NCBI GenBank assembly: GCA_000403335.2
Contig: KE159629.1
Coordinates: 831,838 to 895,837 of the forward strand
Source: Lachnospiraceae bacterium MD335
GTDB lineage: Bacteria > Bacillota > Clostridia > Lachnospirales > Lachnospiraceae
DNA: 64,000 nt
Direction: 5' to 3'
The notes beneath the pieces were generated by a model that saw only the letters and a program-made list of their open reading frames with translations, was not told where the DNA came from and did no database searches. Below, piece by piece: positions 1 through 34,796 of the stretch. Both the position numbers and the translations under genes were made by a program. The number at the start of each line of letters is the position of its first letter. Within the stretch, counting starts at the first letter, position 1.

Positions 1-1068
1 TGCATTGAAATTATGCCGCTTCATCATGGTAAGGTCCTTTATTACCTGCGGCATGGAGACTGCAGCGCCGGTAACGGGATCACAGTCATGACGGTTTACA
101 CCGTGAAATTTTATCTTTTGCCCGTTCAGATAAATAACCTTATCCCGTATCTCAATGGTCCGAAAACCTGTATAGTCCGTAATCGTCTCGTCTTGTGTTT
201 CTATTACGACCGTATACAGGTTCGGACTTTCCGCACTCCACAAATCAGGCTGTATAACTTCCAGCGAAATCCGGTCAGCCTGTACCTTGCCGGATGCCAC
301 CATATTGTTCTTCCCGTCGTAAACTGAAACCGTCGTATCAACAGGCTGCTCCATATAGGAAAAACTGCACTGAATCCTTCCTCTTTTATCTTTTGTCAGT
401 GTTTCGATGCGATAATCACGTACTGCGTGTTTTGGGCGCCGGAGCAGATAAACGTCCCTGAAAATACTGCTCATGCGCAGCTTATCCTGATCCTCCAAAT
501 AGCTGCCGTCGCACCATTTCAGCACAAGAACCGCAAGCGTGTTTGTTCCCTCAACCAGCGCCTGCGTGACATCAAACTCGCTTGTCGCGTGCGATACCTG
601 ACTATATCCGATGCAGGTACCGTTAAGCCACACATAAAAGCAGGAATCGACACCCTCAAAATTCAAGTATGCCCTCGGCGCCTGTTGATCTGTTTGGTAT
701 TCAAAATCATACACATACGCGCCGCACGGAATATCCTGCGGAACAAACGGCGGGTCAAACGGAAACGGATATTTGATGTTGGTATACTGGTGCGCATCAT
801 ACCCCGCCATTTGCCAAACACCGGGAACATTTAACGTATCAAAATCTGACGTGTCATAACCGGGCTCATAAAATCTGTCTTTTACCGCATAAATGCTTTC
901 GTAATAACAAAATTTCCATAAACCGTTTAAAAACTGCACGCGGTCGGAATGTTCCCTGTGTTCCACCAAATAATCCATTCTTTTGGATGCCGGCATGTAA
1001 TACGCACGTGCCGGCATAGTCCCTTCATGCAGTACCTCAAGATTCTCATAATATCTTGGCACAATCAT
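1..1068 (-). CDS. lacZ: Beta-galactosidase, glycoside hydrolase family 2 (N-terminal part, runs off the window)
   Basis: Hydrolyses terminal beta-galactosides, probably in the cytosol since no signal peptide is visible. The 356 codons inside the window match the LacZ start: the sugar-binding jelly-roll (residues about 40-215, with NVPGVWQMAGYD-type and YVWLNGTCIGYSQ-type motifs), the immunoglobulin-like domain, and the opening of the TIM barrel (IYLNGQKIKFHGVNRHD, near residue 330). The catalytic glutamates lie beyond the window edge. The start is ATG with a GGAGGC ribosome site seven bases upstream. It is divergent from an AraC-type gene 166 bp away, the usual layout for a sugar-induced glycosidase and its activator. 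Family assignment is firm; exact substrate (lactose or plant galactoside) is not shown. Confidence 0.93.
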   Translation of the reverse strand, partial: MIVPRYYENLEVLHEGTMPARAYYMPASKRMDYLVEHREHSDRVQFLNGLWKFCYYESIYAVKDRFYEPGYDTSDFDTLNVPGVWQMAGYDAHQYTNIKYPFPFDPPFVPQDIPCGAYVYDFEYQTDQQAPRAYLNFEGVDSCFYVWLNGTCIGYSQVSHATSEFDVTQALVEGTNTLAVLVLKWCDGSYLEDQDKLRMSSIFRDVYLLRRPKHAVRDYRIETLTKDKRGRIQCSFSYMEQPVDTTVSVYDGKNNMVASGKVQADRISLEVIQPDLWSAESPNLYTVVIETQDETITDYTGFRTIEIRDKVIYLNGQKIKFHGVNRHDCDPVTGAAVSMPQVIKDLTMMKRHNFNA

Positions 1069-1130
1069 GCTAATGCCTCCTTTCAAACATGTGTTTTGTT
1101 ACATTTGTCGTTCCTCTCATTTCTTTTGTG

Positions 1131-1159
1131 CTTATATTCTACGATTTTACACAAATCAA
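1131..1159 (-). promoter_or_regulatory. Predicted promoter of the beta-galactosidase gene
   Basis: On the minus strand a TTGATT -35 and a TATAAG -10 are separated by exactly 17 bp, 63 bp upstream of the ATG. AraC-type control is inferred from the divergent neighbour. Confidence 0.55.
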
Positions 1160-1174
1160 GTCCATAAACAGGAT

Positions 1175-1203
1175 TAGACAAAACATGCACAAAATGATAC
1201 AAT
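1175..1203 (+). promoter_or_regulatory. Predicted promoter of the AraC-type gene
   Basis: TAGACA and TACAAT separated by 17 bp, 31 bp upstream of the ATG. It lies back to back with the beta-galactosidase promoter, so one regulator bound between them could act on both. Confidence 0.6.
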
Positions 1204-1234
1204 AAAAAGGCAAATTATTTTGAAGGAGGCATTT

Positions 1235-2104
1235 ATGTATTTAAACTCGGGATATTTGAACAATTCACATATTGATTTCAAAGACAAGTCAAGACCTTTG
1301 ATTGTCGGAAGCTGCGGAACGTATCGTCTTTATGCGCATCCGAAGCTGCCGACCCTGCGCCCGCGCGGAAGATTGGACTTTCAGATTATCTACGTTTGCG
1401 CCGGAGCTGCACATTTTCACTTTGACCATGCAGAAAATGATACAGTCGTCACCGCCGGCAACATAGTGGTATACAGACCGAAAGAATTTCAGAAATATGA
1501 ATATTATGCTGACGACAAAACCGAGGTATACTGGGTCCACTTTACCGGCGGCAATGTCAAGAATATCTTGAGAAGCTACGGCATTTCGGATGACATGCGC
1601 GTATTTTATGTAGGAACTTCTTTGGAATACGAACGAATTTTCAAAAGAATGATAACGGAGCTTCAACGCTGCCAGGCAGACTATGAAGAAATGCTGACGA
1701 TGCTTCTGCGGCATCTTTTGATTTTAATACACAGGCAGCTGACAAAGCAGCATGTGCTGAAAAATGAATACTTAGACAGTGAAATGGACTTGGCGGCACA
1801 GTATTTTAACGACAATTATAATACCGACATCCGCGTTGAGGATTATGCAGCGTCCCGCAGTATGAGCGTCAGTTGGTTTATACGCAATTTCAAGGCTTAC
1901 ACGGGCAGTACCCCGCTGCAATATCTTGTGTCCATCCGCATTGCGAACGCACAGGCGCTGCTGGAGACAACCACCTACACGGTAACAGAAATCGGGCGCA
2001 TTGTAGGGTATGATAATCCGCTGTATTTCAGCCGTATCTTTCACAAACAGAACGGGGTTTCGCCGTCGGAATACCGCAAACGGGTGCTAAGAAATGATTC
2101 GTAG
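1235..2104 (+). CDS. AraC-family transcriptional regulator with N-terminal cupin sensor
   Basis: A 289-residue regulator. Residues about 20-150 have the AraC-type cupin pattern for ligand sensing (RGRLDFQIIYVCAG, VYRPKEFQKY). The C-terminal 100 residues carry the two helix-turn-helix units, with AASRSMSVSWFIRNFKAYTG and the signature VGYDNPLYFSRIFHKQNGVSP. The start is the ATG after AAGGAGGC; an in-frame TTG 15 bases earlier lies upstream of that ribosome site. It is divergent from the GH2 beta-galactosidase, which makes it the likely sugar-responsive activator of that gene. The inducer cannot be read from the sequence. Confidence 0.92.
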   Translation: MYLNSGYLNNSHIDFKDKSRPLIVGSCGTYRLYAHPKLPTLRPRGRLDFQIIYVCAGAAHFHFDHAENDTVVTAGNIVVYRPKEFQKYEYYADDKTEVYWVHFTGGNVKNILRSYGISDDMRVFYVGTSLEYERIFKRMITELQRCQADYEEMLTMLLRHLLILIHRQLTKQHVLKNEYLDSEMDLAAQYFNDNYNTDIRVEDYAASRSMSVSWFIRNFKAYTGSTPLQYLVSIRIANAQALLETTTYTVTEIGRIVGYDNPLYFSRIFHKQNGVSPSEYRKRVLRNDS

Positions 2105-2114
2105 TTCATACGAA

Positions 2115-3536
2115 TCATTTCGCCAAAGTCAGCTTACAGACTGTCTCAATCCCCGTCGTATAAGGAAACATATCCACACAGCAGGCGCGCTCCACCTCAT
2201 ACCCGCAATCAAGCAGCGCCGCAAGATCACGCGCCAGGCTTGTGGGCTTGCAGGAAATATAAATCATCTGCTTTGCCCGAATCTGCTCGCCAATCTTTAA
2301 AAGCGCTTTGGGATGAACCCCGTCACGCGGAGGGTCGAGCACAATAACGTCCGGCTTTTCATGAAGCTCGTCAATCACCTTGAGCACGTCTCCCGCGATA
2401 AATGTACAGTTGTCCAAACCGTTTTGTTTGGCATTCTGCCGCGCTGCCTCAACTGCTTCCTCCACGATTTCCACACCAATCACGTTCTTCGCCACAGGCG
2501 CCAAAAGCTGGGCGATGGTTCCCGTACCGCTGTACAGGTCAAACACGGTCTTATCACACGCCCCGCCGCCCGAAATATCGCCGAGAAAATCGCGCGCCGT
2601 CTCATACAATACCTCCGCGCCCAATGTATTTGTCTGAAAAAACGAGAACTGGGAAATTTTGAATTTGAGTCCTAACAGTTCCTCGTAAAAATAATCCTTT
2701 CCATACAAAATAACCGTTTCATCACTTTTCACAACATCTGCTATCGAATCGTTTTTCGTGTGAAGCACACCTGTTATTTTTCCTTTTAGCGGTAATGTCA
2801 ACAGCGCCTCAACCAGCGGCGCAAGGTCATGTGTCTCCTGTGTGGTTGTAACAAGCGCAACAAGAATCTCGCCTGTCTTTTGTGCCTTTCTGACAAGCAA
2901 GTGCCTCAAGTACCCCTCATGGCGCATGCGGTGAAAATAACTGCTGTTTTTTTGTTTGAAATAGTCCAGCACGCAGGAAAGAATCGCCCTGTAATCCCCA
3001 TCTGCAATACGGCAGTCCCGAACAGACACAATGTCATAAAAGCTTCCCCGTTTATGCATTCCCAATGCAAGCGGTCCATCCTTATATTCATCTCCAAAGG
3101 AAAATTCCATTTTATTCCGGTAATCCGCCTGAACGGGACTGGGCTTGATCCCCTCAAAAATATTGCCGATATATGCATCCAAATCTCCGTTCTGCCCTTT
3201 TAATAACATCTGTTTTTCAAATATTGGGCGCAGCAGCCGCAAGACCTGCGTCTCTTTGAGTTCAAGCTGCTTTTCATAGGGAACGCTTTGGTAGCTGCAC
3301 CCGCCGCAGGAACCAAAATGCGGACAAGGGCTTTTGATTTCGTATGCCGCAGGCTCAAGGACCTCCAAAAGCCTCCCCTCCGCCTTTCCTTTGCGCTTTT
3401 TATTCACCATAAAAGATACCTTCTGCCCCAAAAGCGTGTTCTTAACCACCGCAGCCTCGTCCTCACAACGCACAATTCCTTTATTCGGAAAATCAATCCG
3501 CTCCACATATCCTTCGTAAATCTGTCCCTTTTTCAT
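2115..3536 (-). CDS. rlmD: 23S rRNA (uracil-5-)-methyltransferase, RlmD/RumA family
   Basis: SAM-dependent methylation of a uracil in 23S rRNA (or tRNA in close paralogues). The 473 residues show an N-terminal TRAM RNA-binding domain (1-60), a 4Fe-4S cysteine cluster (C71, C77, C80 in the CPHFGSCGGC stretch, with a likely fourth cysteine near RDCRIAD), and a Rossmann methyltransferase with SAM loop LYSGTGTIAQ, LDPPRDG motif and the catalytic-cysteine motif SCKPTSLARDL. The chosen start follows GGAGG by five bases; an ATG four codons upstream overlaps that ribosome site and is unlikely. The family has paralogues (RlmCD, TrmA-like), so the target uridine is not certain. Confidence 0.93.
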   Translation of the reverse strand: MKKGQIYEGYVERIDFPNKGIVRCEDEAAVVKNTLLGQKVSFMVNKKRKGKAEGRLLEVLEPAAYEIKSPCPHFGSCGGCSYQSVPYEKQLELKETQVLRLLRPIFEKQMLLKGQNGDLDAYIGNIFEGIKPSPVQADYRNKMEFSFGDEYKDGPLALGMHKRGSFYDIVSVRDCRIADGDYRAILSCVLDYFKQKNSSYFHRMRHEGYLRHLLVRKAQKTGEILVALVTTTQETHDLAPLVEALLTLPLKGKITGVLHTKNDSIADVVKSDETVILYGKDYFYEELLGLKFKISQFSFFQTNTLGAEVLYETARDFLGDISGGGACDKTVFDLYSGTGTIAQLLAPVAKNVIGVEIVEEAVEAARQNAKQNGLDNCTFIAGDVLKVIDELHEKPDVIVLDPPRDGVHPKALLKIGEQIRAKQMIYISCKPTSLARDLAALLDCGYEVERACCVDMFPYTTGIETVCKLTLAK

Positions 3537-3560
3537 TGTAACCTCCATATCCGTTAAACG

Positions 3561-3590
3561 AAAAACGGGGTGCCTTTTCTCAGCACCCCC
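3561..3590 (-). terminator. Rho-independent terminator
   Basis: GGGGTGC/GCACCCC stem with a 9-base loop and a T-run on the minus strand. It ends the transcript of the small membrane protein at 3604-3936 just before the methyltransferase gene. Confidence 0.75.
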
Positions 3591-27789: not shown

Positions 27790-30700
27790 TTATTTTGTTT
27801 TAAAGCTCTTTACGATTGGCTTGTTTTTAAGATCTGTAAGATTTGCACCTGCTGCCTCTACTTTTACGAAATATTGGGTTTTTGCAGCAAGAATGTCTTT
27901 ATTGACCTGCGTCTTGCATTCCTTATCTTTGTAGAACGTCATCTTATAATCCGTCTCAGGCAACATATTCTTACCGATTGCAACCGTAACGACAGGAGTT
28001 GTGCCATTTACTTTTACGGTCACTTTTACCTTCTTAATATCATTTGGCTCTATCTTCCATGTTGCACCTTCAATCGCTACAGGTTTATTATCCCCACCGG
28101 AATAATTTCCCTTGCCCACAATTTCCATTGTGTACTCTCCTGCCTCTGTAGGATTAGTGGTTGTTTCCTTTGTTACTTTATTTGTATACTTAATATCATA
28201 GTCTTTGCCAGCCTTTAATCCCACTTTCTTAGGCTTCTTTCCGCTGTTATCAATATGCTTCACCGTGCTCTTTGTTTGATTCACACCGCCATTATATAAA
28301 TTCTTCGGTGATACCTTGATTGCACTAGTATCGACCTTGAGTTCAAGCGGACTGATAATAAACTCTTTTTTCAATTCTCCGCCAAATGTTCCTGTGCCCG
28401 CAATAACAACCGATGCAGTTCCCGCATCTTTATTATTAAAATAACTTACCTTAAACTTCACCTTCTTGGCTTTTCCCTCACTTGACAGTACAACCTTGGG
28501 CTTATATGCTTTACCTGTGTACATCAGTTTACCCTCTTTTCCATCTTTCACAAGCGCATCAACTTCCTTGAGGTCAAACCAATTTTCATCCAGCATTTCG
28601 CCCACAGAGTAATTCAGTGTTGCCTTCTTTGTACCAAAAGTAACCGTAACCTTTGTTTTTCCTACTGCCGCAGGTGTTATGGCAAGATCTATTTTGTTTC
28701 CTGTAACTGTAGTTGAAATCTCAGCCACACTTGTATTTGAAGAAACAATTGCAAAATCATCAAAAATTCCCTTTTGATACAGCTCTTCGGCAGTATATAC
28801 CGGATTCTCTGCCTTCTGCTTTACTGTAAGATAAACATGCTGCGTTTCCTTTTTACTGCTTCCGCTTACAATTCCGCCGGAAGTTGTAAGGCTGGCCTTT
28901 CCGCTATCTTCAAAAAGGAGCGAATTGATTTGATGTACATTGACAACACATGTCTCCGTCATTCCCGCTGCCGTAAGCGTGATTTTAGCCTGCCCCGGAG
29001 CCACTGCCGTAATCTTACCGTTTTTATCTACCTTTGCTACTTTTTCATCACTGCTTAACCATGTCTTTGTAACATTTTCATTTGATATGTACGCATTATC
29101 ATAAGTAAGTTCCGCTGTCTTTTTCGGAAGAAGGTTAATCTCTGTCTGAGAAAGTTTGATGCTCTCAACCGCAGGCTTATACCCGGTAGCCGAAGGTGTT
29201 ACAAAATCAAATATCTCTGTAAAACTATTATATCTGTTTCCAACAGGAAAGTGATAGCCGTCATCCGCACACAGAAGATAATCTTCTGTTGATCCCCCCA
29301 GTTTCTCATCATCATTCCATGTCGAATCATGCAGGTACCAATTTCTATCCGGCATTTGAACATAATTCCATGCATGTCCGCCGAATCCGCTCTCTGTGTC
29401 TGCAGGCACTAAGCCTGTTGCATACATGTTAGGAATACCGATTGAATCAAGAAGTCTTGTCATGGAGAGCGCGTAACTTTCACATACACCATATCCTTTT
29501 AGTAAAATACCATAGGATGAATGGGAATAATAATAAATTTCCCGTGTACTCTTATCCGATGAGCTGCCGCCAGTTACTCCTACCATGTTGTAATAATTAT
29601 TTTCACAAATCCACTTGTCAAAATATTTTACAATTCCATATACCGGCGCGTTAGGATAATTTTGAATTGCATATTCCTGTGCCTGTGCCGCAAGCTCTAA
29701 AATCTTAGCCTCCGCGGCTTTATTAAGTGACGCATTGTAAAATTCGGACTTTCCAATATTTACTTCCCACTCATATGTTGGATCAGACTTTGAATAATAG
29801 TAATATACGATGTCAAGTTTACCTTGCGATGACAAGTCCATCCAATCACATTTATACGGTTCTGTCAAAATATATGCCGAAATGGCCTGCTTAAAATCAT
29901 CCAAAGTTAATTTACTTGTGGCATTAAATTTAAATTTGTTGGTTCCTTTTCCCATTGCCCCGCAAGCTTTGTAAATCGTTTGCTGGTTTTTCGTAAGCTG
30001 CGAACTAAACCAGTCTTTCGAGGGCAAAATAGATTTTATCTCCTGTATTTCAGCGCTATCATATCCTAAATCTACAATAATATCTGCTTTTACGTTCTCA
30101 ATTACAGGAAAATATTCTTCCTCAAGTTCGGGAATCAACTCCATATTTTCTTCTGACAACAACGTATCTTCTGTTTCAGACTCTGACTCTTCCTCCATAT
30201 CAGTCTGCGTTTCTTCTGCTGAAGTCTCGTCTATCACTGTTTCATCACTCGATTGTGACTCCATTTCACTCTCAACGGCGCTCTCTTGTGCATCCGTATC
30301 TGATACAGTTTCTTCTACCGTTGTTTCTTCCTGCGTTGCGGTATCTTCTTCCGTGCTGTCATCTGCTGTCGTTTCCTCTGTTAAGGTTTCTTCTATAGTC
30401 TCTTCCAAAGACTCTTCTGCGGAAGCCTTTTCTATTGAATCTTCTACATCAACGGTTTCTTCAGCCTCACTCTTATCCTCCAAAGCTTCAGCCTGTGATG
30501 CTGCAGTTTCCTCTCCTTGTGTCTCTTGGGCAATTTCCTCGGTCTGTACACTCTCTATAAAGTCTTCTGCAAGTTTACCCATACCTGTCTCGAGCGCTTT
30601 TACGGGAATAGAGTAATGAAAAGCAAGCGTACCATCTTCATCCACGGCTGCTACGACATCCTCTAAAATATCCCCTTCTCTGAATGCAGATGCAATCTCG

Positions 30701-31041
30701 TCACAAAATGCAAAATACGCATCCCGTGCATCCGCATTCAATGCTTTTACATTTTCTGCCGAAAGGTATACCACATCCTCGTAGACAACTCCGTCGGAGC
30801 CAACCGCTTTCCCGCTCTCCGAAACATTGAAAGTATACAAATCACCTGCCGCAGAGTGAAGCGTTTCCTGTTCTTCCTCACTACTTTCTGCCACATCGTC
30901 CGCTTCTTTCGTTTCCTCAGTAATCACAGCGCTCTCTTCCGAAAGCTCCGCCGCATTCACGGTTCTCACCGTCATACCAGAAGGGATGCCAGTCACTACA
31001 AGCGTCAATGCAAGCAACATTGAAACAATTTTCTTTTTCAC
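27790..31041 (-). CDS. Large secreted transglutaminase-like cysteine protein with Ig-like domains
   Basis: A 1083-residue extracellular protein. A signal peptide (1-31) is followed by a very acidic, Glu/Ser/Thr-rich stretch (about 40-300). The central domain is transglutaminase-like, with the full triad C520 (GYGVCESYALSM), H556 (GGHAWNYV) and D572 (LHDSTW). It continues into a Big_2 type Ig-like domain (VESIKLSQTEINLLPKKTAEL, KVDKNGKITAVAPGQAKITL) and further beta domains with repeated Ig-like segments to the end. No LPXTG or S-layer anchor is seen. Family members act as proteases or transpeptidases on surface proteins; the substrate is unknown. The start follows AGGAGGAAAAGCTGTG. Confidence 0.9.
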   Translation of the reverse strand: MKKKIVSMLLALTLVVTGIPSGMTVRTVNAAELSEESAVITEETKEADDVAESSEEEQETLHSAAGDLYTFNVSESGKAVGSDGVVYEDVVYLSAENVKALNADARDAYFAFCDEIASAFREGDILEDVVAAVDEDGTLAFHYSIPVKALETGMGKLAEDFIESVQTEEIAQETQGEETAASQAEALEDKSEAEETVDVEDSIEKASAEESLEETIEETLTEETTADDSTEEDTATQEETTVEETVSDTDAQESAVESEMESQSSDETVIDETSAEETQTDMEEESESETEDTLLSEENMELIPELEEEYFPVIENVKADIIVDLGYDSAEIQEIKSILPSKDWFSSQLTKNQQTIYKACGAMGKGTNKFKFNATSKLTLDDFKQAISAYILTEPYKCDWMDLSSQGKLDIVYYYYSKSDPTYEWEVNIGKSEFYNASLNKAAEAKILELAAQAQEYAIQNYPNAPVYGIVKYFDKWICENNYYNMVGVTGGSSSDKSTREIYYYSHSSYGILLKGYGVCESYALSMTRLLDSIGIPNMYATGLVPADTESGFGGHAWNYVQMPDRNWYLHDSTWNDDEKLGGSTEDYLLCADDGYHFPVGNRYNSFTEIFDFVTPSATGYKPAVESIKLSQTEINLLPKKTAELTYDNAYISNENVTKTWLSSDEKVAKVDKNGKITAVAPGQAKITLTAAGMTETCVVNVHQINSLLFEDSGKASLTTSGGIVSGSSKKETQHVYLTVKQKAENPVYTAEELYQKGIFDDFAIVSSNTSVAEISTTVTGNKIDLAITPAAVGKTKVTVTFGTKKATLNYSVGEMLDENWFDLKEVDALVKDGKEGKLMYTGKAYKPKVVLSSEGKAKKVKFKVSYFNNKDAGTASVVIAGTGTFGGELKKEFIISPLELKVDTSAIKVSPKNLYNGGVNQTKSTVKHIDNSGKKPKKVGLKAGKDYDIKYTNKVTKETTTNPTEAGEYTMEIVGKGNYSGGDNKPVAIEGATWKIEPNDIKKVKVTVKVNGTTPVVTVAIGKNMLPETDYKMTFYKDKECKTQVNKDILAAKTQYFVKVEAAGANLTDLKNKPIVKSFKTK

Positions 31042-31324: not shown

Positions 31325-31741
31325 ATGAAAAATCAGCATATATTACAACTTTCCACTTTGCTCATCGGCACTGTACTTTTTTTAACGGGATGCAGTTTTT
31401 TCAAAAGCTCCCATTCATTAAACACAGACAGTCCCATTAATGAGTTGGTCCCGAATACAGAAGTAACTTTGGAAACTAAAATCGAAAGCGCCGCCGACAT
31501 GTGCAGCTTTCTTAAAACCTCTTACGCTAAAATGCAGGAGCTTGCCGCCGCACAAGACGCTTCGCCTGACGGCGTAAAAGCGGCAAAAGCAGTCGAAGAG
31601 CAACACGACGACCGCTTACAAGAACTTTTTGCCCTTGATTTTTCCACAATGGACGAAACACAAATCGATTCGTATCTTGTGGAAATGACAGACCTCATCA
31701 CGGTAATCCGTGAAGCAAGAGACGCGCTGACCTTCAACTAA
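31325..31741 (+). CDS. Small lipoprotein, unknown function
   Basis: The 138 residues start with a lipoprotein signal (LLIGTVLFLTGC, lipidated C23), so it is anchored outside the membrane. The rest is an acidic, mostly helical domain (ETKIESAADMCSFLKTSYAKMQEL and DETQIDSYLVEMTDLITVIREARDAL). A family could not be recognised. The start follows CGGAGGATACCAC. It has its own promoter and terminator, so it is a one-gene unit. Its stop codon lies inside the terminator stem. Confidence 0.82.
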   Translation: MKNQHILQLSTLLIGTVLFLTGCSFFKSSHSLNTDSPINELVPNTEVTLETKIESAADMCSFLKTSYAKMQELAAAQDASPDGVKAAKAVEEQHDDRLQELFALDFSTMDETQIDSYLVEMTDLITVIREARDALTFN

Positions 31742-31773: not shown

Positions 31774-31983
31774 TTACTCGATGGAAACCACCTTATAATC
31801 CTGCTCCTCCACAGCCTTCGTAAGCGCCTCGTCAGACACCTCGCCGCTGCACGTTACCACTGCGGTTCCCTTTTCGTGGCTTACCGCCGCCTCTGTGACC
31901 CCCGCAAGCGCCTCTAAGCATTTCTTGACCCGTGCCTCGCAGTGTCCGCACATCATTCCTTCGATTTTCATTGTCTTTGTCAT
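31774..31983 (-). CDS. copZ: Probable CopZ copper chaperone made by internal initiation within copA
   Basis: The last 69 codons of copA form a complete HMA domain of standard CopZ size, beginning at an ATG that follows AAAGGAGGA by seven bases. The metal motif is MMCGHCEARVKKCL, and the fold has the usual beta-alpha-beta-beta-alpha-beta spacing (TKTMKIEG, VTEAAVSHEKGTAVV, ALTKAVEEQDYKVV). In the long protein it is a fused C-terminal domain. Whether free CopZ is made from this start is inferred from the ribosome site alone; the E. coli copA gene makes a free metal-binding domain by frameshifting, which gives a precedent. Confidence 0.68.
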   Translation of the reverse strand: MTKTMKIEGMMCGHCEARVKKCLEALAGVTEAAVSHEKGTAVVTCSGEVSDEALTKAVEEQDYKVVSIE

Positions 31984-34356
31984 GTTGAAATCCTCCTTTT
32001 TCAGTTCTGCTTCCTGATTTTCCTTTATCATATGGCGCGCCTTTTTGTCCCTTGACGCGTCATGAATATTGGCAAAATTTAAGCGCAGCGCGTTTGTCAC
32101 CACGCAAAAGCTTGAAAGGCTCATCGCCGCCGCCGCAAACATCGGATTGAGCTGAATGTGAAAGAGCGGAATCAGCAGTCCTGCCGCAAGCGGGATACCG
32201 ATAATGTTGTAGATAAACGCCCAAAATAAGTTTTCGTGAATGTTGCGCAGCGTCCGCCGGCTCAGGCGGATTGCCGCAGGCACGTCACTAAGCCTGCTCT
32301 TCATCAGCACCACGTCCGCCGCGTCGATTGCGACGTCCGTTCCCGCGCCGATTGCAATGCCGATGTCCGCTCTTGTAAGCGCGGGAGCGTCGTTGATGCC
32401 GTCGCCGACCATTGCCACCTTGCCTTTTTCTTTTAACTTGCGAATGACGCTCTCCTTGCCGTCGGGGAGAACGCCTGCAATCACCTCCGTCACGCCTGCC
32501 TGCGCGCCGATTGCCTGCGCGGTCTGCTCGTTATCGCCCGTGAGCATCACCACATGAAGCCCCATGTTTTTCAGAGCCTGCACTGCCTGCGCGCTGTCCT
32601 CCTTGATAACGTCCGCCACCGCAATCATTCCTACAAGCGCATCGTTTCCCGCTGTGTCCTCACGTGTAAAAAAGAGCGGTGTCTTGCCCTGCCGTGAGAG
32701 TTCCTTGGACTGTTTTTGCAGTGCATTGGGAATCCCCGTCTTTTTTCCGATAAAGCTTCCGCTGCCGCCAAAAAGCCGTTTTCCGTCGCACAGTGCCGTA
32801 ACGCCGTTTCCCGAAAGCGCCTCAAACTCCGTAATCGTACCAATCTGCTTCTGACTGTTTTTGTCCGCGTTTTTTGCCAATTCATTCTGCGCATACTCGC
32901 ACACGGCGCGCGCAAGCGGATGCTCGCTTTTTTCCTCCAGCGCATATGCCATTGCAATCAATGTCTTTGCATCAATACCCTCTATGGGTATAATATCCGT
33001 AACCTTCGGCATACCGCTTGTAATCGTGCCTGTCTTGTCAAGTGCGACAATCTGCACCTTTCCCGCCTCTTCCAATGATACGGCGGTTTTGAATAAAATG
33101 CCTTTTTTGGCGCCGACACCGTTTCCGACCATAATCGCAACGGGGGTTGCAAGCCCGAGCGCGCAAGGGCAGCTGATGACAAGAACGGAGATGCCCCTTG
33201 CAAGCGCAAATCCCACGCCTGCGCCGGTCAACAGCCACACAAACGCCGTGACCAGTGCGATTGCGATAACCGCAGGCACAAACACGCCCGATACGCGGTC
33301 CGCGACCTTGGCAATCGGCGCTTTGGTTGCCGCCGCGTCGCTCACCATCTTGATAATCTGCGAAAGCGTCGTATCCTCGCCGACGCGCACCGCCTCACAT
33401 TTGATAAATCCGGAGCGGTTTATGGTTGCTGCCGACACGCTGTCGCCCGCCGCCTTGTCGACCGGAATGCTCTCACCCGTAAGCGCCGCCTCGTCAACTG
33501 CGCTCGTTCCCTCAAGCACAATGCCGTCAACCGGAATGCTCTCGCCCGGTCTTACCACGAACACGTCGCCTTTGACGACTTCTTCAATACCAACCGTGCG
33601 CTCGCTGCCGTCTTGCACGACGACCGCTGTCTTCGGGGATATGCGCATCAGCCCTTTCAGTGCATCGGTTGTTCTGCCCTTTGAGCGCGCCTCCAACATT
33701 TTTCCTACAGTGATAAGCGTCAGAATCATCGCCGCAGACTCAAAATAAAATTCATGCATGTAGTCCATGACTGCCTGCATATCGCCGTTTAGCTGTGCAT
33801 CCGTCATCGCAAAAAGCGCGTACGCGCTGTACACAAATGCAGCCGTAGAACCAAGCGCCACCAGTGTGTCCATGTTTGGCGACTTATGAAACAGGCTTTT
33901 AAAACCGCTGATAAAAAACTTTTGGTTGATGACCATGACTGATATGGTCAATAAAAGCTGTATCAGCCCCATTGCGACATGATTGCCTTCCAGTATGGAC
34001 GGCACGGGAAAGCCCCACATCATATGTCCCATTGAAAGATACATCAGGACAATCAGAAATCCCAAAGAATAAATCAGACGCTGCTTTAAGACCGGCGTTT
34101 CCTTATCTGCAAGCAGGTCTTCCTGCGATGCGTCCAAAGCGTTTTTCTGCACCGCGTTGTTTTTTGGCATCGCTCCGTAGCCTGCCTCTTCCACTGCCTT
34201 GATAATGTCTTCTGGCTTTGCCGTGCCTTCTACGCCCATTGCGTTTGTCAAAAGACTGACGGAACACGCATTTACGCCCGCTACCTTCGACACTGCCTTC
34301 TCCACCCTGCTGCTGCAGGCGGCGCAGCTCATTCCCGTCACCGTATACTGCTCCAT
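31774..34356 (-). CDS. copA: Copper-exporting P1B-type ATPase with N- and C-terminal metal-binding domains
   Basis: Pumps Cu(I) out of the cytosol. The 860 residues show an N-terminal HMA domain (MSCAACSSRVEKAV, CAAC), transmembrane helices, the actuator TGES motif (LTGESIPVDKAAGD), CPC in SCPCALGLATP, phosphorylation DKTGTITSG, HP motif (EHPLARAVCEYA) and hinge VGDGINDAPALTRAD. Unusually, a complete second HMA domain (MTKTMKIEGMMCGHCEARVKKCL, CGHC) is fused at the C-terminus (last 69 residues). An internal ribosome site and ATG precede it. csoR lies 36 bp upstream in the same operon. Confidence 0.96.
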   Translation of the reverse strand: MEQYTVTGMSCAACSSRVEKAVSKVAGVNACSVSLLTNAMGVEGTAKPEDIIKAVEEAGYGAMPKNNAVQKNALDASQEDLLADKETPVLKQRLIYSLGFLIVLMYLSMGHMMWGFPVPSILEGNHVAMGLIQLLLTISVMVINQKFFISGFKSLFHKSPNMDTLVALGSTAAFVYSAYALFAMTDAQLNGDMQAVMDYMHEFYFESAAMILTLITVGKMLEARSKGRTTDALKGLMRISPKTAVVVQDGSERTVGIEEVVKGDVFVVRPGESIPVDGIVLEGTSAVDEAALTGESIPVDKAAGDSVSAATINRSGFIKCEAVRVGEDTTLSQIIKMVSDAAATKAPIAKVADRVSGVFVPAVIAIALVTAFVWLLTGAGVGFALARGISVLVISCPCALGLATPVAIMVGNGVGAKKGILFKTAVSLEEAGKVQIVALDKTGTITSGMPKVTDIIPIEGIDAKTLIAMAYALEEKSEHPLARAVCEYAQNELAKNADKNSQKQIGTITEFEALSGNGVTALCDGKRLFGGSGSFIGKKTGIPNALQKQSKELSRQGKTPLFFTREDTAGNDALVGMIAVADVIKEDSAQAVQALKNMGLHVVMLTGDNEQTAQAIGAQAGVTEVIAGVLPDGKESVIRKLKEKGKVAMVGDGINDAPALTRADIGIAIGAGTDVAIDAADVVLMKSRLSDVPAAIRLSRRTLRNIHENLFWAFIYNIIGIPLAAGLLIPLFHIQLNPMFAAAAMSLSSFCVVTNALRLNFANIHDASRDKKARHMIKENQEAELKKEDFNMTKTMKIEGMMCGHCEARVKKCLEALAGVTEAAVSHEKGTAVVTCSGEVSDEALTKAVEEQDYKVVSIE
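31991..31999 (-). promoter_or_regulatory. Internal ribosome-binding site for embedded CopZ
   Basis: AAAGGAGGA lies in frame inside copA, seven bases before an in-frame ATG. It is as good as any gene-start site in the window, and chance within a coding region is unlikely. Confidence 0.7.
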
Positions 34357-34734: not shown

Positions 34735-34772
34735 AAACAGTTTCTCCTTTTTTTCTTATTTTATTATATACT

Positions 34773-34796
34773 ATACCTTGGTACGGTATTTGTCAA
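34773..34796 (-). promoter_or_regulatory. csoR-copA promoter with candidate CsoR operator
   Basis: A TTGACA -35 (34791-34796) is next to an inverted repeat ATACC-7-GGTAT (34773-34789) lying in the spacer. The 5-7-5 layout matches the CsoR operator pattern as I recall it from Bacillus copZA. The -10 is unclear (TAGTAT at 17 bp). Confidence 0.62.

Follow-up and report, generated by a model that had tools for sequence, protein, structure and literature searches.

In Escherichia coli, frameshifting in copA releases the N-terminal domain of the copper pump. PMC9548414 describes how this gene gives rise to both a pump and a chaperone by frameshifting, and the copA/CopA(Z) system (Meydan 2017 and Drees 2017, as cited there) resembles what we propose here in that one gene provides a pump and a free HMA chaperone. 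CopA of Archaeoglobus fulgidus is a pump with a C-terminal metal-binding domain, like the copA product examined in this work. Cas11b is likewise a small product of a longer gene, within which it is translated in frame from an internal site (PMC11899642), as we also propose here; the proteins and the pathway are unrelated to CopA and CopZ. Finally, a survey of CsoR in gut Firmicutes/Clostridiales found copZ missing and called this noteworthy (PMC4938975).

Here we describe a copA locus of Lachnospiraceae bacterium MD335, within a stretch of 64,000 nucleotides that was analysed as a whole (the window, to which coordinates refer unless another locus is named). While E. coli releases the N-terminal domain by programmed frameshifting, the locus described here would provide a C-terminal CopZ-type domain through a second initiation of translation. 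The initial annotation had already set the locus apart from E. coli frameshifting, a contrast that agrees with PMC9548414. Dual-product genes and internal initiation are already known; for a nested copZ start within copA, which is widely kept, we found no report in the open-licence literature.

The copA locus and its nested CopZ-type domain

Domain searches identify copA (31774..34356, minus strand) as the gene of a copper-translocating P1B-type ATPase of 860 residues with an HMA domain at both ends, and its product scores 583 bits against TIGR01511 (cut-off 397). The N-terminal HMA domain (34177..34347, minus strand) comprises residues 4-60 and carries the motif GMSCAAC. The gene for the copper-sensing repressor, csoR (PF02583; 34393..34734, minus strand), lies 36 bp upstream on the same strand, and a consensus scan places a promoter-like TTGACA-17-TAGTAT ahead of it (34768..34796, minus strand). 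Between these hexamers sits an inverted repeat, ATACC-7-GGTAT (34773-34789), a candidate CsoR operator, which we take to resemble the operators of this repressor. Within copA itself, a simple consensus scan of the minus strand found nothing that resembles a promoter. Both products would likely come from one copper-induced mRNA. Two neighbouring frames were also recorded: a lipoprotein-like frame of 138 residues, convergent with copA and without a Pfam match (31325-31741, plus strand), and a secreted-looking protein of 1083 residues with a long Glu/Ser/Thr-rich stretch and GTG as its listed start (27790-31041, minus strand).

The initial annotation described the last 69 codons of copA as a full-length HMA domain that is preceded by a perfect Shine-Dalgarno (SD) sequence and an in-frame ATG at seven-base spacing, and both parts of this description hold. 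The nested copZ (31774..31983, minus strand) spans codons 792-860 of copA, that is, 69 codons and the stop, and encodes an HMA protein of 69 residues, which by itself scores 50.8 bits against the Pfam HMA model (cut-off 24.8) and covers its positions 1-58 of 62. The metal-binding motif GMMCGHC is located at 31939..31959 (minus strand), and both cysteines of this GMxCxxC site are invariant across 21 aligned rows. A variable linker of 33 codons (31984..32082, minus strand) leads from NALR, a motif in the last membrane helix, to the internal start codon, the in-frame ATG at copA codon 792 (31981..31983, minus strand). The internal SD, AAAAAGGAGGA, occupies 31991..32001 (minus strand); AAAGGAGGA (31999-31991), which is contained in AAAAAGGAGGAT, leaves seven bases to the ATG at 31983, so the earlier description is exact to the base.

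The predicted pairing of this site with the anti-SD amounts to -11.8 kcal/mol, the second best value among the 80 in-frame ATG, GTG and TTG codons of copA and surpassed only by the start of copA itself (-12.5 kcal/mol). Among the 48 ATGs scored in any frame (from base 21 on), the internal ATG pairs best. The 60 nt at the internal start have a predicted folding energy of -2.1 kcal/mol, compared to a copA average of -14.2 kcal/mol, and 99.5% of the copA windows are predicted to be more structured. A second copA paralogue in the same genome, 52% identical (L007, positions 1001-3580, minus strand; contig C12 of genome G000), likewise has a C-terminal HMA domain and carries AAGGAG eight bases ahead of an internal ATG.

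In a tree of HMA domains, which is based on 69 columns and has long branches and an unsettled bootstrap, a branch with support 99/93 places 39 fused C-terminal domains together with operon-encoded, free and GMxCxMC-type HMAs, and 39 N-terminal and 7 Zn-type HMA domains on the other side. In this tree the nested domain groups with the CopZ chaperones and not with the N-terminal HMA domain of copA. The 69 residues are predicted to adopt a beta-alpha-beta-beta-alpha-beta fold, the first strand beginning at residue 2. The prediction shows a CopZ-type fold, which is also common to the HMA domains of pumps, and the fold comparison does not separate the two. Stand-alone CopZ proteins (PDB-codes: 2qif, 6ff2, 1cpz) are likewise HMA domains of 68-69 residues, and the predicted fold matches theirs along almost the entire chain; they are, however, encoded by a separate gene, whereas the reading frame of the nested copZ is continuous with copA. 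Among PDB sequences, the 69 residues match ATP7B (65 bits) and Bacillus subtilis CopA (49 bits) above CopZ (38 bits). The scores against the NCBIfam CopZ models remain below cut-off (NF033795, 51.8 against 91 bits; NF033794, 48.1 against 95; NF047957, 62.8 against 85), and therefore the nested domain is not filed in these subfamilies.

Conservation of the internal start in relatives

The 3' ends of fused copA genes were drawn from same-genus genomes, 35 of 38 of which hold a close copA, from named records (the best 80 of 543, recruited with the nested domain itself as query) and from 119 loci of the host's order. In the order, 238 of 295 genomes matched, and 29 new loci and 90 hand-picked regions were taken from the matches listed. 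The sampling is biased towards fused genes because the copA query contains the C-terminal HMA domain, and the rows are mutually related, so that counts are not independent events. From 235 loci, 13 in which no linker was found and 11 near-identical rows were removed, which left first 222 and then 211 distinct fused genes. Three of the 13 are cut by contig ends (L013, L044, L048); L100, L155 and L188 were missed by the linker motif, yet have the start and the SD; no HMA was found behind copA in L228, L234, L235, L236 and L240, and L233 and L241 are split.

A start codon is present at the site in 205 of the 211 distinct fused genes sampled (203 ATG, 2 GTG), 5-9 codons ahead of the GMxC motif, with ATG at eight codons in 175. 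The initial annotation had made its reading depend on the site being kept in relatives alongside the HMA domain, and in this sample, which includes the best 80 of 543 named records and otherwise matches listed, start and SD are kept together in 202 of 211 genes and also beyond the order. A pairing energy of at least -4 in strength was enough to be counted as an SD here, a permissive threshold that about 60 of 205 codon shuffles pass as well; an energy of -8 or better is reached by 188 of 205 genes, versus 9±2 under codon shuffling. The start is absent in six fused genes (L146, L147, L151, L152, L159, L192) and the SD in three (L148, L191, L201, the last being one of the two with GTG), and with 9 of 211 lacking one or the other the feature must be dispensable in places.

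Among the matches listed for the order, 109 distinct fused genes were scored, and 100 of them have both start and SD, as do L155 and L188, which were read by hand; the two elements are found together in 49 of the 59 genera sampled. Named isolates with the site include Petralouisia muris (L103), Acutalibacter sp. 1XD8-36 (L099) and, with a weaker SD, Butyrivibrio sp. MC2021 (L069). Beyond the order, 302 of 398 genomes matched; 28 loci and 20 hand-picked regions from the matches listed were used, and four rows that proved to be in-order were removed. The other 44 comprise 34 fused genes and 10 that are not fused (L302, L325-L333). All 34 fused genes, from 19 families among the matches listed, have the start and an SD at the -4 threshold, and 24 of them carry AGGAG or GGAGG. 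Many outside-order CopA proteins among these matches stop near residue 760, without a C-terminal domain.

Selection on nucleotides and competing explanations

The linker ahead of the start is highly variable, with 177 different hexapeptides in 205 genes. Even so, AGGAG or GGAGG is found in 178 of 205, compared to 73±7 under synonymous recoding that keeps the amino acids and the codon usage of each gene (200 runs, maximum 90) and to 8±3 when the linker codons are reordered. The GGAG ends 8-9 nt ahead of the start in 160 of the 178 and appears in all three frames (153/23/2), being spelled KE, EE, ME, TE, QE, VE or LE in one frame and KGE or EGE in another. Within the same linkers, the codon for Lys before Glu is AAG rather than AAA at a ratio of 115:14 in the SD zone versus 15:71 elsewhere; in the order set alone, the ratios are 62:4 and 6:33. 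Directly after the start, A-rich codons prevail, with ACA at 73% and GAA at 80% versus 35% and 42% further along the domain, and the start region is predicted to be less structured than its synonymous recodings in 175 of 203 genes.

For 104 full-length loci, the median anti-SD energy is -9.3 at the site and -3.7 at 2973 other Met codons, although in 44 of them another copA Met codon pairs equally well or better, and the predicted 60-nt folding energy at the site is -1.9 compared to -14.9 kcal/mol. We take the conserved SD, the AAG bias, the A-rich codons and the low structure as marks of a working start site. These sequence comparisons show that selection at the site acts on nucleotides rather than on amino acids. 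What was found is an in-frame, conserved SD and start codon under nucleotide-level selection, the pattern by which we recognize internal initiation; translation from the internal start of copA is strongly suggested by it, and it is very probable that copA also yields a free copper chaperone in this way.

Could the site instead be a remnant, the SD and ATG of a former copZ that linger unused after fusion with copA by loss of a stop codon? The existence of split copA-copZ pairs, which makes an old copZ start the probable origin of the site, and the nine of 211 fused genes that have lost it would agree with this, but an unused site should not keep its SD in three frames against the synonymous null despite 177 hexapeptides in 205 genes, nor its post-start codons and low structure, nor should it recur across 49 of the 59 genera sampled within the order and 19 families outside it among the matches listed. 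We therefore regard a mere remnant as very unlikely, even if it is the best placed of the alternatives. The next in rank, likewise with a very small probability, is a free chaperone that is cut from the pump by proteolysis in the linker, or translated from a shorter transcript that begins inside copA. E. coli copA reportedly combines frameshifting with differential transcript formation (Drees 2017). The linker of the fused genes, however, lacks the conservation expected of a protease site, the simple consensus scan found no promoter-like minus-strand site in copA, and an internal transcript would still require the same SD and start.

It has been proposed that SD-like sequences within genes make ribosomes pause, and the site might accordingly slow the ribosome so that the membrane domain is inserted ahead of HMA domain synthesis, without any second product; the ATG here sits 33 codons past the NALR motif, as would suit a pause. 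Yet a pause does not need a start codon at fixed spacing, which 205 of 211 genes keep at the domain edge, with GGAG 8-9 nt away in 160 of 178, while the distance between the NALR and GMxC motifs varies from 21 to 82 residues among the fused genes. This makes a pause less credible still. Lowest of all, and practically negligible, is a cause at the protein level, in which a Lys/Glu-rich linker and a structural Met mimic an SD and start by chance: KKEE-type linkers are common and coding alone would give some 73 of 205 strong SDs, but 178 are observed, AAG prevails in the SD zone and AAA elsewhere, and codons for M, T, Q, V, L and E replace Lys with GGAG preserved.

With internal initiation as the favored explanation, transcription of a single csoR-copA mRNA is predicted once CsoR has been released by copper. 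From this mRNA, ribosomes starting at 34356 would produce the pump with two HMA domains, and those starting at 31983 the 69-residue protein, which would bind Cu(I) via GMMCGHC and pass it to the pump. Initiation at the internal start, the free protein, its copper binding and its regulation, as well as the direction of the fusion, are what we infer from sequence.

Origin of the fusion, other free HMA proteins and implications

Adjacent pairs in which copA ends in a stop codon and is followed by copZ occur in two loci of the order (L233, L241) and in L325-L333 outside it; a clear SD precedes copZ in 8 of these 11 and is weak or unclear in L326, L327 and L333. Because copA and copZ are separate neighbors in these relatives, the nested gene may be traced to the loss of the copA stop codon. 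The simplest reading of the sequences would be that the stop of copA in a copA-copZ operon was lost in frame, while selection probably retained the SD and ATG of copZ. A quick CopA tree (75 rows, SH-aLRT only; L141 and L191, misread by the motif finder, are omitted) requires 11 label changes and fits one or several fusions, and its six rows of start-less fused genes need five changes. In one further locus (L302, genome G640), an in-frame stop lies between pump and HMA domain, and a G-rich stretch and an ATG remain ahead of the latter; its relatives in family f111 are fused.

Does the cell have another source of free chaperone? The HMA search of this genome, which is 97.8% complete, returned six domains. 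Four belong to the two copA genes, each of which has a C-terminal HMA domain and an internal SD-ATG; the remaining two lie in small proteins of the DLDC type, encoded next to other metal ATPases. The search found no further free protein with a GMxCxxC HMA. All 8 genomes that were picked as having a fused gene without start or SD (G263, G151, G165, G307, G252, G132, G067, G131) carry a small free GMxCxxC HMA, directly behind copA in G151, G067 and G307. Of 24 genomes picked as keepers of the start, G089 has a start without SD, leaving 23. In nine of these, the matches include no GMxCxxC HMA in free form (G048, G093, G124, G133, G158, G163, G217, G231, G303), four have a free HMA of the GMxCGMC type (G078, G190, G195, G206), seven a frame of about 110-135 residues with another GM/DMxCxxC HMA (G065, G120, G147, G171, G210, G306, G317), and three have weak matches (G042, G155, G110). 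Seven further keepers come from two genera that also hold genomes without the site (G156, G164, G140, G180, G189, G181, G219); six of them carry a GMxC(G/S)MC-type HMA as well, which in G156 lies directly behind copA. Small free HMA proteins are thus found in keepers as in losers, frequently in the same genome as the nested start, and with so many carriers having other such proteins a need for the free product is possible rather than certain.

A separate family consists of frames of about 90-130 residues whose HMA domains are of the DGMMCGMCEAHVNDAIRK type and some of which follow copA directly (L261, L264, L390; also L260, L265, L276, L283, L285, L360, L383, L387, L388, L389, L392). Elsewhere, an HMA is joined in the same frame to a short hydrophobic Cys-rich segment (L255, L352) or lies beside one in a neighboring frame (L353, L355). 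These segments resemble FeoB-associated Cys-rich proteins, and the combination would possibly make membrane-tethered metal-binding proteins.

Internal initiation in copA would, if true, be a second route besides E. coli frameshifting by which one gene provides both pump and chaperone, and the retained ribosome site shows how a fused gene may keep both of its products. Such nested proteins would escape gene callers that assign a single start to each frame. It is likely that across much of the Clostridia copZ has been swallowed rather than lost, its ribosome site being kept alive inside copA in many families. The nested start, if it works as proposed, would resolve why copZ is missing from gut Clostridiales: the chaperone would reside inside copA, under the control of CsoR.
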